Assembly: GCF_000425205.1 (NCBI RefSeq)
Contig: NZ_AULI01000001.1
Location: 1-64,000, forward strand
Direction: 5' to 3'
Origin: Pontibacillus halophilus JSM 076056 = DSM 19796
GTDB taxonomy: Bacteria > Bacillota > Bacilli > Bacillales > BH030062
DNA length: 64,000 bases
A program made the translations under genes and the position numbers. The notes under the pieces are model-generated. The model made no database searches and was not told the origin of the DNA. It saw only the letters and a list, made by a program, of their open reading frames with translations. The stretch's first letter is position 1. The number at the start of each line of letters is the position of its first letter. Positions 14,094-58,883 of this stretch are shown one piece after another.

Positions 14094-15539
14094 TTATCCT
14101 TGACTCAATTCTTTTAAATCTCTTAGTTGAGACGTATTGTCTTGAATCATTGTTGTCATTTGCGAATTACCTGAGAGCAATGTTTCTGAAGTGGACGTCA
14201 ATTGTTGCAAGCTAGCTTGAGACTCTTCCATTAGCGCTGCCAAGCGATTAACAGCGTCCCCAATTGTATGCATCGATTGTTGCAACGTATCCACGGACGC
14301 TTCATACCCTTTTGTATAACTTGTCGTTTGTTCAATCGATTGCTGAATATGGTCAAACATGGTTGTAGACTGGTCTGTAGTTTGTTTACTCATCTCCATC
14401 TGTTCCATATTTTCAGCCATCTTCTGTTGTACAGCTGTTGATTTTTGCTCCACAGATGTAAGATTTTGATTGATTTGACTCGCTGATTGGTTGGACGTTT
14501 CAGCAAGCTTCCGTATTTCCTCCGCAACCACAGCAAAGCCTTTTCCATGTTCCCCTGCCCGTGCTGCTTCTATAGAAGCATTTAGTGCGAGCAAGTTCGT
14601 TTGTTCAGCAATCTCCTGTATTTTACTAGTGAATTGTCCAACTTCTTTAATCTTTCCAGTGAGGTCGTGAATGTCTGTTGCCATTTCACTTAAATCATCC
14701 CCAAATTGTCCAATTGCTTCGCTAAGCTGCTCAATTGTGACTTTCCCTTCTCGGGACAAGTCATTTGTTTCTTGCATGTCAGAAGCAAGCTTCCCTGTCT
14801 TATGCTTCATTTCTCCGTACAATTCGTTTGATTGCTGCACTTCTTCCGTAATGCCATTGATGTCACGAACCTGATCCTCAAAAGCACGGGTCAATTCTTG
14901 ATAGGCTTTCGAGATATCTTGAAAGTGAGTATGATGCTCATCGCTACGCGCGCGCATCCCTTCCATACTCGAGAATGAGTTCTCAATGGAAGATGCAAGC
15001 TGTTGCTGGAGTTGTGCTTGACCTTCAAGAAGGTGCTGTACTTCTTCCTTCTGCGTGATCATTTCCTTCATGTATTCCTTTGAATACTTTACGACACCGA
15101 ACAACATGACTGCTGACATCGTATAGTAATACATGACTTTTAGACTTTCTTGTGAGAATCCAATTACGCTTAGTCCATAGAAAGAGACTCCGTACCCAAT
15201 GACGAGCGAAGTAAAGAAGACCCGATAATTCTGATAAATGCCAGATAGTATTAACACAAAGATTGTTAAGAAGAACGTGGATGTTGTTGGACTGACCGTC
15301 AAGATAACCACTTCAATGATGGACATGGCAACGATAATAATATACGCTGCGAGCCACTCCACTTTCTGAGTTAAATGAATCGTAACAAGTGCGGCCACCA
15401 TGACGATATCTAACCCTAAAATTGAAACTAACAACGGCGTCGAATAACCCGCCTGAAACATGGCATATGTGGACAAGAAGGCTCCAATTACAAATATCCA
15501 CAAGACCATTCCATTCTTCCGATGTAGTGCTTGATCCAT
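14094..15539 (-). CDS. Membrane methyl-accepting chemotaxis protein
   Basis: This 481-residue chemoreceptor has about six closely packed N-terminal membrane helices (about 10-175, for example [17 protein letters not shown] and [20 protein letters not shown]). A cytoplasmic coiled coil follows, with the MA signalling domain and the highly conserved hairpin [30 protein letters not shown]. There is no large extracellular sensor domain and no clear HAMP, so the membrane bundle itself is the likely input module. It should act through CheA/CheW encoded elsewhere. The start has GAGGG ahead. Confidence 0.92.
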
Positions 15540-39921: not shown

Positions 39922-40470
39922 TTGTCGTTAAACAACCTATCCCTATTTAAAGAATGCTTCGGTGACGTCGTCGGCGAGGTACAAGAATTAAGCAACGCCC
40001 CACTTACCCAGATGAATTCACGCTCCCTCAAGTACGAAACGAAAGTACCACAGCTCGAGTACATGTGTCTTATGATGGAGAACATGGTGATTACAAAGAA
40101 ACTGAAAGGCAATGTGTATGCTGGTTTCCAGAAATTCTCTCGTGCTGAGAATGTCATTGACCGCTTCCGTGCGATGACAGAATACTCCAATGTGTATATC
40201 TTCGGAGAAGACGATGCCCCTACCGATCCAACAGATGGGATCAACTACATCTCTCTTCCACCCCAAAGTGAACTGATGCGTGAATGGTTCCTCGTTATTG
40301 ATAGCCCAGTATTTAAATCCATGATGGTCGCTTATGACATGGAAGGTTTCGGTATTCAAGAGATTGAAGAGGACCGTAAATTTAAAGGCGTCAAAACGTC
40401 CAATCCACAAACCATCCAAAAGGCAAACGACCTTTTAGCCCCTCACGTTAACGCAACCCCGATTGGCTAA
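39922..40470 (+). CDS. Stand-alone DICT-domain sensory protein
   Basis: This 182-residue cytosolic protein corresponds over most of its length to a DICT domain, the sensory module otherwise found fused to GGDEF cyclases and two-component proteins. Diagnostic segments are LEYMCLMMENMVITKKLKGNVYAGFQKFSR (about 45-74), RFRAMTEYSNVYIFGEDD and WFLVIDSPVFKSMMVAYD. No output domain is attached and no partner gene is adjacent. The start is TTG 39922 with AAGGAGG. The leader holds two consecutive hairpins (39848-39874 and 39879-39895). The family call is fairly good; the ligand is unknown. Confidence 0.72.
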   Translation: MSLNNLSLFKECFGDVVGEVQELSNAPLTQMNSRSLKYETKVPQLEYMCLMMENMVITKKLKGNVYAGFQKFSRAENVIDRFRAMTEYSNVYIFGEDDAPTDPTDGINYISLPPQSELMREWFLVIDSPVFKSMMVAYDMEGFGIQEIEEDRKFKGVKTSNPQTIQKANDLLAPHVNATPIG

Positions 40471-40542: not shown

Positions 40543-40833
40543 GGGTGCGCACGTACAATAAAATTAGTGGTCAGGGGAAAGGGGTCGCTTTCCTGTTACC
40601 CCATACGATGTGGGGTAGTTCGGTGTTATCCCAGGAGGGGATGAACTTAACCGAACTTCTAACAAGAAGCCTCCTCGTTCGCTTTCGCTCTCTGTGGGGT
40701 CTCAGAAGCACGTACTTCCACGGGGCCCTGCGGGATGCAGGGTCGTTCGATGTTGGCACAGGACGTGCCGATTTTAATCGAACTTCCTTAAGTCACCTTT
40801 TCCCTACCCCCTAGCTAACATCTATGCGCACCT
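40543..40833 (+). ncRNA. Candidate structured RNA, about 290 nt, unknown class
   Basis: The region between the DICT and RibU-like genes folds as one closed unit. The outer helix is GGTGCGCA (40544-40551) with TGCGCACC (40825-40832). Next comes AGGGGAAAGG (40573-40582) with CCTTTTCCCT (40796-40805). Internal hairpins are TACCCCA/TGGGGTA (40597-40603/40611-40617), AGTTCGGT/ACCGAACT (40617-40624/40650-40657) with inner ATCCC/GGGAT, CCCTGC/GCAGGG (40726-40731/40737-40742), and GTTCGAT/ATCGAAC (40745-40751/40777-40783) with inner TTGGCAC/GTGCCGA. GGAAAG (40576-40581) could instead pair with CTTTCC (40588-40593), so alternative folds exist. A TATAAT at about 40537-40542 sits just ahead. The helices pair equally on the minus strand, but gene direction favours plus. 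It may be a riboswitch-like leader of the gene at 40897 or a free RNA. A transposon-like inverted-repeat element is a less likely alternative. Confidence 0.6.
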
Positions 40834-40896: not shown

Positions 40897-41502
40897 ATGA
40901 GTCTATTACAAAAACGGATTACAGTTGGGATTCTGGCTGCCCTCAGCATCATTCTATTCTATTGGAAAATTCCTCTTCCTTTCTTCCCAAGTGTTCTTAC
41001 GCTGGATTTGAGTGATCTTCCTTCTCTAGTTGGAGCGATTATTCTCGGGCCCGTTGCAGGGATTCTCATTCAGCTTCTTAAGAACATCGTCGATTTCCTC
41101 ACTCACGGGAGTTACGTTGGCTTACCAATTAACCAGATTGCAAATTTCTTATCAGGGTCCATCATGGTCGGCATGGTAGGAGTCTTCTACCATTATAAAC
41201 AACGCCTGAACTGGCAGAGCATTCTTGTCTCCATTAGCGTATTCCTAGCTGCGATGTACGCATTGAATTATTACTTTATCCTTCCTTCCATCATGAATTT
41301 GTTAGGCCTAAATCTAGAGCAATATATCGTAACTTTCTCCTCCGTGAATCCGTACGCGACTACGTTCAGCAAAGCTGTCCTCTTGGTCATCGTACCGTTT
41401 AACTTAATTAAAGTCTTAATCGTCTACGGCGTTGGCTTGCCGTTCGCTATGCGACTACAACGTGTAACTAAACTGAACGAAAAAAGGAGCTTTGCTGCAT
41501 GA
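40897..41502 (+). CDS. ribU: RibU-like ECF transporter S-component
   Basis: This 201-residue membrane protein of about six helices closely follows the RibU riboflavin-binding pattern: [35 protein letters not shown] (about 30-64), [18 protein letters not shown] (about 71-88), [16 protein letters not shown] and [12 protein letters not shown]-components bind vitamins with high affinity and normally pair with the shared EcfA-A'-T module, which in Bacillus is encoded elsewhere. The stop codon overlaps the ATG of a chemoreceptor gene (ATGA, 41499-41502), an unusual partner. Riboflavin is the best guess, but the upstream RNA is not the classical FMN riboswitch. Confidence 0.87.
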
Positions 41503-42728
41503 AACACATCTTCTCTACATTGACTACAGTAACGAAAGCACAATGGACACAAATTACAGCAGGTACAATTATGGCCCTACTCATTGCCTTATTCTCGTAC
41601 TTCGTCCCAAATTTAGCGGTTGTCCTTCCTGTCACCGGGCTCCTTATACTCTCACTTCTCATCGCAATTATGGCATACCAGACGCCTTCTACAAGTGATG
41701 ATGCCACAGATGACGTTGCGACTGTAACAGAGGACTACGTCAGAGCTTCCCTTGAAGAGATGCGCCATGTTGAAGCACATGCTGGACATCTTCAGTCCAT
41801 GAGTGGTGCAGTGAATGGTGCTGCTGATGAGATTAATACAGTCATGATGGATATGGTAAATGAAATCACGAGCCAGAAGACGTATATCGCTGATTTCTCC
41901 GAGCAAATGGATCGGATTGACGCGATGATTCAGAACTTGAACGCCATGATTGAAGTAACAAACGACACGACTGAAAACATCACCTCCCTATCCAATAACG
42001 GGAAGAAGCAAATTGACGATTTCGGGGATGTGTTCCAAGGGATTATTTCTCTTACGGAGCAATTTGCAAGCTACAATCAAGAACTGTTCGATAAGATGAA
42101 AGCCGTTACGGAATCACTAGGTTCAATTGAATACATATCAAATCAAACGAACCTTCTTGCCTTGAATGCTTCCATTGAAGCTGCTAGAGCTGGTGAACAC
42201 GGGAAAGGGTTCGGTGTCGTGGCACAGGAAATTCGCAAATTATCTAACCAAGTGAAAGAAAGCGCCGATTCCATTAACGACATCGTTAACAACGTACACG
42301 AAAGCATCCGTCAGCAGGAGGAGTCCTATCAACGAGACATTGGGATCTTAGAAGTGGGACGTGAGAAGGGCGATGCTGTCGTTCAAATCTTCGACGACGT
42401 CATTACGAATATCCACAGCCTGCACGAGCAGTCACAGCAAATGGAACAAAGCTCTCAAGAAGTCGAACGAGAGAACCAAAAAGTTGTCGCCCAAATGAGT
42501 GAATTGAACGACCTCACAGGGGAACTGTACAGTAAAACAGAAGGTACATCCGGACTTGCGATGGAGCAACAGTCTAGCATGATGGAATTAGACATGACGG
42601 CCACCACCATGACCGAGCACATCAAGAAGGTCCAAGAAAATCTGAAAGAACATTTAAATGGCGAAGATGCAGGGTGGGTTCGCCCTGCTGAAATGAGTAA
42701 GCGGGATCATTTGAAGGCTGTGAATTAA
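41499..42728 (+). CDS. Methyl-accepting chemotaxis protein coupled to RibU-like gene
   Basis: This 409-residue chemoreceptor has two adjacent N-terminal membrane helices (about 18-36 and 40-58) joined by only a few residues, so it has no extracellular ligand domain. No HAMP is obvious. A coiled coil and the MA signalling domain follow, with the hairpin tip [35 protein letters not shown] (about 210-244). It is translationally coupled to the RibU-like S-component by a 4-bp overlap with AAAAAGGAGC ahead. This suggests that the S-component acts as its ligand-binding partner. That functional link is inference. Confidence 0.93.
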
Positions 42729-42730
42729 TA

Positions 42731-42765
42731 AAACAAAGCCTGGCTATAACGCCAGGCTTTGTTTT
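42731..42765. terminator. Terminator after RibU-MCP operon
   Basis: A 13-bp perfect stem (AACAAAGCCTGGC 42732-42744 with GCCAGGCTTTGTT 42751-42763) is followed by TTATTG. Confidence 0.92.
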
Positions 42766-42870
42766 ATTGTTATTTATGTAATACGTAAAAGATTACTAAT
42801 GCTAGATGACATAGTAATAAGCTGGGATGGGAGCTAGTCATCTAGAGAATAGTTATCAAAATAAAATATA

Positions 42871-57474: not shown

Positions 57475-57581
57475 TCCGACGTTTTTATGACAAAACTAGA
57501 AGAATTCTCCTAATCCATCTATTTTCTGCTAAACTATGGATGTACTTATATTATTTTTCATTAAAAGTTAGAGGTGAACAA

Positions 57582-58883
57582 ATGGGGATTATGGGGTTTA
57601 AGAAAAGAGAGAAACCTTCCATATACGAGGAAAGTCATCACGTGCAGTACGGGTACGGGTTAGACCGCTACCACGAACTATCTAGTCAGCTTGATTTCAT
57701 GAAATTTACAGAAGAAGAACTACGCACTGCCAAATGGCTCTATCCGATTGTAGAGAAACATATTGACCGAATTGTGAACGAGTTCTATGAACAAATAGAA
57801 AAAAAGCCAGAGTTGAACGCAATCGTGAACAAACACTCTTCAATTGATCGACTGAAGAACACACTGAAGAAGCACATTTTAGAACTGTTTCAAGTCGAGA
57901 TTAACGAGGAATTTCTAGAGAAGCGTCTTATGATTGCAAAGAAACATATTCATATCCACCTTCCGACTCATTGGTATATGGGGTCATTTCAGAATCTTGT
58001 CTCCTCCCTCTCCACTATTCTCAGAGAGGAATTCAGTGACGATATCGATCAAGCATTTGAAGCATTCAAAGTTGTTCAGAAATACATGAGCATTGAGCAA
58101 CTCATTGTATTAAAAGCCTACGAAGATGAAAACAAACGACTCCGAGAAGTCAGTGAAGCAACCCAACAGGAAATCGTCAACCAAGTGGAGCACTATTCCA
58201 ATGGACTTGTACAGTATGGCGAAGAAAATTCGTCTAGAGTTCAAGAGCTAGTCGCGGGGGTTGAAAGTGTTGCAAATCACGCCCAAACAGGGCTATCTAT
58301 TTCCACAGAAGCCCAGAAGCTCGCTACAGAAGGGAAAGAGAACCTGGAGCAACAAGCAAAAAGCGCCCAATCTATCCTAGACCAATCCACGAGCGTCCAT
58401 AACAGTGTAGCAGCACTAGAGCGTTCGTCGGAGAAGGTAACAGAGTTTGTTGGCTACATGAGTAATATCGCTTCCCAAACGAATTTACTAGCATTAAATG
58501 CTTCCATAGAGGCATCAAGAGCTGGTGAGGCTGGTAAAGGCTTTTCAGTTGTGGCAGAAGAAGTAAGAAAGTTAGCAGCCCAATCACGAGAAATGGCTGA
58601 AACGATTACCGAAACGATTGAAGAGAATAAAACGAGCGTAACGAGAATCTCGACGTCCGTTGATGAGATGAAGCATTCTGTCGAGCATAACGCCAATCAG
58701 CTTAGTCAGACGATTGAGCATGTTGAACGCATTTTCCATGCCTTAGGAAGAAGTTATGAACAAGGGCAAAGTATTGAGAATGAAACGAAGGAAATCATGC
58801 ATATGGTTCAAGCCATCGGTGTTGAAAGTGAAAAGATTGTTTCTTCATTAGAACAACTGCATGAGGACATCCAACAGTTGTAA
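57582..58883 (+). CDS. hemAT: HemAT, globin-coupled oxygen chemoreceptor
   Basis: This 433-residue soluble receptor has an N-terminal globin-like sensor domain (about 15-175) and an MA signalling domain (about 250-430) with [28 protein letters not shown]. The probable proximal haem ligand is His122 in [19 protein letters not shown], matching the position of His123 in B. subtilis HemAT; the segment is unusually histidine-rich. It mediates aerotaxis through CheA/CheW. The start at 57582 with AGAGGTGA is preferred over 57540. Single gene. Confidence 0.95.

Follow-up and report, generated by a model that had tools for sequence, protein, structure and literature searches.

A conserved DICT protein, ECF S-component and MCP unit in Pontibacillus halophilus and relatives, and its possible dependence on the deazaflavin FO

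In this work, we describe a three-gene unit of Pontibacillus halophilus JSM 076056 = DSM 19796 that may encode a taxis receptor dependent on FO (7,8-didemethyl-8-hydroxy-5-deazariboflavin, or 8-HDF), a 5-deazariboflavin and a near-UV/blue chromophore. The unit consists of a DICT-domain protein, a RibU-like ECF S-component that we call RibU2, and an MCP signalling protein. On balance, we lean towards a reading in which RibU2 would serve mainly to supply FO to a receptor made of the DICT protein and the MCP, and would not itself be the sensor. We consider it probable that the small molecule handled by RibU2 is FO; that light is the stimulus we put forward tentatively, as a guess rather less likely to hold than to fail. 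At the level of sequence, four observations stand behind the proposal: the conserved trio of genes, the coupling of two of them through an ATGA overlap, the separation of RibU2 from other RibU in both phylogeny and riboswitch control, and the presence of cofG-cofH in place of the S-component gene in three genomes. The first-pass annotation of this DNA had paired the S-component with the MCP as a system for chemotaxis toward riboflavin or a related compound. The unit is larger than was seen then, since the DICT gene, a second, canonical RibU and the operon variant with FO synthase had all been missed.

A conserved trio with a translationally coupled pair

The window analysed here comprises 64,000 nucleotides (positions 1-64,000 of contig NZ_AULI01000001.1, assembly GCF_000425205.1). 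Within it, the DICT gene (39922-40470, + strand; 182 aa) has a TTG start preceded by AGGAGG and is followed on the same strand by the genes for RibU2 (40897-41502; 201 aa) and the MCP (41499-42728; 409 aa). The stop codon of the S-component gene overlaps the start codon of the MCP gene in the sequence ATGA, as the first-pass annotation had noted. A terminator-like hairpin with a T run (42731-42768, +; identified by eye and unscored) lies behind the MCP gene. Between the DICT gene and that of the S-component there are 426 bp, in which two Bacillaceae-1 RNA elements lie on the minus strand (40600-40666 and 40727-40793; Rfam RF01690, 49.7 and 66.5 bits), and an Rfam scan of the other 12 trio loci gave no RF01690 match. 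A further Bacillaceae-1 RNA element occurs near a canonical RibU locus (L018, 1142-1208). A simple pattern search of 13 upstream stretches found no SigD-type promoter.

Three other genomes from the family carry close homologues of the S-component, as do Halobacillus litoralis, Halobacillus sp. Nhm2S1, Bacillus sp. SJS and Metabacillus mangrovi. When a RibU2 profile was run over 299 genomes of the order, ten matched at an E value of 6.4e-99 or better and the next match was at 2.2e-45. The genes for the DICT protein, the S-component and the MCP occur in the same order and on the same strand in all 13 distinct loci, the window included, and the ATGA overlap is kept in every one of them (13/13), so that the pairing noticed in a single genome proves to be retained in others; these loci span at least three families. 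An MCP gene adjoins RibU2 in each of the ten RibU2 genomes of the order sample, and the DICT profile matched 13 of the 299 genomes, all ten RibU2 genomes among them (co-occurrence p=2e-16, a value that ignores relatedness). Mean column identity over the first eight loci was 83% for the DICT protein, 75% for the S-component and 64% for the MCP. No genome entered the counts more than once (L030-L032, L035 and L060-L069 come from genomes already counted, and L034 repeats L026), and results for the order sample (299 genomes) and a class sample (348 genomes) are given apart, as the two overlap in part. On plasmids, the DICT protein was unmatched and the S-component was matched only distantly (25-34% identity in 11 records). 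By these sequence comparisons, the trio is a real and conserved unit, its S-component and MCP genes are translationally coupled, and this S-component clade is tied to the receptor.

The MCP of this unit has a single Pfam match over cut-off, to the signalling domain PF00015 (9.9e-26), which identifies it as an MCP signalling protein, and neither HAMP nor a ligand-binding domain is among its Pfam matches. Typical MCPs usually, though not obligatorily, carry HAMP or a ligand-binding domain of their own, whereas here neither was matched, in keeping with the description of the receptor as sensor-less. The two membrane helices with almost no outside loop are likewise as first described: in the AlphaFold model, predicted membrane helices at residues 13-35 (41535-41603, +) and 43-60 (41625-41678, +), both hydrophobic by eye, are separated by approximately 7 residues. 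After helix 2, the AF2 model has a linker (residues 61-75) with pLDDT < 50 and then a long coiled coil. Given that this linker is also poorly conserved and that no HAMP was matched, a signal from the membrane would have an awkward route to the signalling domain. Near the C-terminus lies a W-x-R-P tail (residues 393-396; 42675-42686, +), in which the W, R and P are unchanged across all 18 DICT-linked MCPs, suggesting a docking peptide for a partner. Twelve matches to the MCP signalling domain are present in the whole window genome, and the tail occurs in one of these 12 MCPs. Elsewhere in the window, a soluble MCP (57540-58883, +) has an N-terminal half that by eye resembles a globin-coupled (HemAT-type) sensor, and another MCP (14094-15539, - strand) seems, also by eye, to have several hydrophobic helices at its N-terminus, with little of the protein exposed beyond the membrane.

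The DICT gene product matches PF10069 at 51.3 bits (cut-off 23.8; 1.4e-13), and all 18 of 18 homologues match the profile. Its AF2 model (pLDDT 79.9, pTM 0.81) resembles phospholipase-D-like folds (NucT, Foldseek 9.1e-6; PPK1, Z 12.1) and also matches the sugar-binding domain of TrmB (Z 11.6). The catalytic HxKxxxxD motif of such folds is absent in all 18 homologues, as would be expected of a ligand sensor, and the model thus predicts a non-catalytic phospholipase-D-like fold. No known flavin sensor is among the matches listed for this fold, and we know of no flavin- or light-sensing role for phospholipase-D-like folds. A role in light response has nevertheless been predicted for the DICT domain, as stated in the available text of PMC8612252; the protein described here shares the domain and differs in being a stand-alone protein beside an MCP.

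RibU2 compared with other RibU proteins

The S-component belongs by sequence to the ECF S-component family, with matches to PF12822 (ECF_trnsprt; 3e-24, 86.4 bits, cut-off 30.7) and PF07155 (ECF-ribofla_trS; 6.8e-7), and its best PDB sequence match is RibU of S. aureus (3p5n, 1.6e-18), in agreement with its initial description as RibU-like. It shares with that protein its family, its length, the small residues for docking to EcfT and a set of 22 positions that are near-invariant in RibU2 and other RibU alike. N124, N169 and K172, which we take to be flavin contacts, are among the 22. The available text of PMC4860826 and PMC4525288 does not give the contact residues of 3p5n.

RibU2 is nonetheless, as judged from its sequences, a separate clade and not ordinary RibU. 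On a tree with a midpoint root only, the 13 RibU2 sequences stand apart from 28 other RibU with a branch support of 100/100 and do not group within them, and the stem branch of RibU2 is 1.94 changes per column. The comparison of positions (28 sequences from 29 other RibU loci, L042 having no ORF that passed the filter) gave 27 clade-specific positions, for example Q59 in RibU2 versus E in 28 of 28 other RibU. The two groups also differ in regulation. An FMN riboswitch was found at none of the 13 RibU2 loci, in contrast to 20 of 20 among the other RibU loci, where the scan covered 20 out of 29, and the window genome has a second RibU on another contig, which is canonical and carries an FMN riboswitch.

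One outcome that would have suited a sensor, the loss of the residues that contact EcfT, did not materialize. Helix-1 docking positions 11 and 15, which alignment and the arrangement in ThiT would map to AXXXA, hold A, G or S in all 13 RibU2, and each of the 13 genomes tested has an EcfT-family gene (PF02361). Together, the retained small residues and the EcfT gene suggest that RibU2 is able to act as a carrier. The AXXXA motif has been tied to EcfT docking, and is lacking in 5TMR receptors and MreD, in the available text of PMC11109136. The same source describes fusions of 5TMR to MCP domains, which qualifies the earlier remark that no system of this kind has been described, since these too link an S-component fold to an MCP signalling domain. 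In the unit described here, by contrast, the two proteins are encoded by unfused ORFs, the S-component is of the vitamin type by sequence, and its AXXXA-type residues are kept.

FO synthase genes in place of the S-component

In the three remaining DICT genomes of the order (G113, G135 and G296), the RibU2 profile finds nothing at 1e-30. In each of them, the genes for the MCP, cofG and cofH lie on one strand, with 10 nt (G113 and G135) or 27 nt (G296) between MCP and cofG, and the DICT gene is divergent alongside. Their MCPs have two helices, a similar linker motif and the identical W-x-R-P tail type; thus the two helices are not special to receptors that have an S-component. NCBIfam CofH scored 473-478 bits in the three genomes (cut-off 374) and CofG 433 and 438 bits in the two that were scored (cut-off 213), cofG of G135 being assigned by eye. 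Since cofG-cofH lie in the MCP operon precisely where the S-component is missing, the S-component seems to be replaceable by FO synthesis. It is chiefly for this reason, that a flavin-type S-component stands where relatives keep enzymes for a flavin analogue, that FO is named as the ligand.

The MCP gene of G296 (L078, 7700-8095, -) is split by a frameshift that falls on six consecutive C, between the two predicted membrane helices, and two hydrophobic stretches lie upstream of the MCP ORF in other frames; the frameshift may be an assembly error or real. This genome also has a selenocysteine tRNA (L078, 9738-9830, -) near its FO synthase-MCP-DICT cluster.

CofH was over cut-off in four of the 299 genomes of the order, namely these three and G174, while all ten RibU2 genomes of that sample fell short of it; the genomes of loci L027, L028 and L029 lie outside the CofH search. 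The overlap of CofH with DICT has p=2.5e-4 when relatedness is ignored, a value that overstates independence, as the three cofGH operons may share one transfer. CofD, tested in 18 genomes, passed its cut-off in two (G174 and G466), neither with a DICT match. None of the order's 13 DICT genomes passed, G135 giving a weak match of 25 bits against a cut-off of 257. With no CofD over cut-off, synthesis in these genomes probably stops at FO and does not proceed to F420. In two Bacilli genomes, at L132 and L133 (G174 and G466), both CofH and CofD are over cut-off, and these probably make F420.

Some of the distribution speaks against a link between DICT and FO. In the class sample (348 genomes), DICT matched three genomes, those being the window genome, G448 and G467, and CofH was over cut-off in two others (G466 and G530), so that the two do not overlap there. 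In G448 and G467, which belong to another order of the class, DICT adjoins a soluble MCP ending in W-x-R-P, and the search for an FO source in these two genomes, which covered CofH alone, found none. DICT-MCP pairs thus occur without CofH, and three genomes (G174 in the order sample, G466 and G530) have CofH without DICT; both observations count against the main reading. Soluble W-x-R-P MCPs beside DICT are seen at L079 (7015-8058, -) and L075 (268-1317, +), with no S-component or cofGH seen nearby. Among 14 named control genomes, DICT was found in Synechococcus elongatus and Haloferax volcanii; the CofH match of the former passes the cut-off and that of the latter does not.

A proposed FO-dependent receptor and its alternatives

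In the mechanism that we propose, the MCP would be anchored in the membrane and control the kinase but have no sensor itself, and the cytoplasmic DICT protein would be its sensory partner, probably docked on the MCP and perhaps at the W-x-R-P tail. The DICT protein would probably also be the FO-dependent part, with FO as its cofactor or chromophore; from the sequence patterns described above, RibU2 and the DICT protein are both putative binders of FO. RibU2, specialised for FO and working with the shared ECF module, would import FO leaked by other organisms, and this import would stand in for the cofG-cofH genes with which the MCP gene shares an operon in three relatives. FO synthase and FO-dependent photolyases offer a close comparison; here too FO synthase genes are present, in those three relatives, but CofD is not found over cut-off and the neighbour is a taxis receptor and not a photolyase. 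The stimulus would plausibly be light, given that FO is a near-UV/blue chromophore, the alternative being redox state. In the available text of PMC8498797, FO is said to cross membranes by diffusion and to be a photolyase chromophore, and 8-HDF is named solely as a photolyase chromophore in that of PMC3546692. A diffusible photolyase chromophore, together with the predicted involvement of DICT in light response, makes light our first guess, while the same diffusion through membranes means that an importer would not be strictly required.

The best-surviving alternative, unlikely though we judge it, is that RibU2 is itself an outside sensor of FO, packed against the helix pair of the MCP in the manner of sensory rhodopsin II on HtrII, so that cells would swim by FO gradients, a cue of FO-leaking neighbours. 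Sensory rhodopsin II and HtrII are a multi-helix membrane protein and a transducer of two helices that has hardly any domain outside, and the resemblance to RibU2 and its MCP extends that far; here, unlike there, the multi-helix protein is an ECF S-component and not a rhodopsin, a DICT protein belongs to the unit, HAMP is unmatched and the transducer also occurs without the S-component. The constant adjacency of MCP and RibU2 fits such a sensor, and the ATGA overlap in 13 of 13 loci would suit a physical S-component-MCP receptor complex equally well. The S-component fold does serve elsewhere as a receptor domain fused to MCP domains (PMC11109136, in its available text). Against this, three genomes keep the two-helix MCP and the DICT gene with FO synthase and without any S-component, which fits supply better than sensing, the low-confidence linker without HAMP would have to carry the signal, and the EcfT-docking residues are kept. 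For the same reasons, the initial proposal that the S-component transduces the signal finds no support.

It is less probable still, and to our minds quite improbable, that RibU2 imports FO mainly as a photolyase antenna and that the operon is shared because all of its products answer to light or FO, the receptor making no use of FO. FO-type photolyases are known, as the available portions of PMC8498797 and PMC9178010 attest, and the photolyase domain PF03441 was found in 11 of the order's 13 DICT genomes compared with 12 of 30 others tested. Two genomes (G146 and G284), however, have the trio with no photolyase match, and photolyases therefore do not explain the trio; moreover, cofG-cofH lie behind the MCP gene, and not behind a photolyase gene, in three of three cases.

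The reading with which the annotation of this locus began, that the S-component is a riboflavin or FMN sensor through which the MCP directs riboflavin chemotaxis, fares a shade worse again. RibU homology, the conserved pair and the retention of the 22 RibU-wide positions are all in keeping with it, but riboflavin as the ligand is hard to square with the replacement of the S-component by FO synthase, with the contrast in FMN riboswitches, with the long separate branch of RibU2 or with the canonical, riboswitch-controlled RibU that the window genome already owns. Riboflavin chemotaxis was set aside on these grounds. That RibU2 is an ordinary second riboflavin transporter and a chance neighbour of the MCP, as its helix-1 small residues and the presence of EcfT would allow, is hardly credible, being already contradicted by the conservation of the trio across at least three families.

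Returning to the FO-dependent receptor, in which RibU2 supplies FO to the DICT protein and the MCP, the presumed cofactor of the receptor would be either made by genes of the operon or scavenged by a carrier encoded at the same place. We know of no earlier report of such a system, and a search of open-access literature by titles and abstract openings, most subscription journals falling outside it, showed none among the papers listed. The boldest form of the proposal is a possibility that we raise with clear reservation: a new class of photoreceptor, in which DICT with an FO chromophore steers an MCP in blue or near-UV taxis and the FO is stolen through a dedicated S-component.

Altogether, this analysis describes a conserved receptor unit in which a vitamin-type S-component and an FO synthase appear to alternate. 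If the proposal is true, it would provide an FO-specific carrier of the vitamin type, show a deazaflavin at work in signalling and give the orphan DICT domain a concrete ligand to test. In the boldest form, the light vision of bacteria unable to make FO would hang on a scavenged pigment, and the same relationship might also explain the occurrence of DICT in cyanobacteria and haloarchaea.
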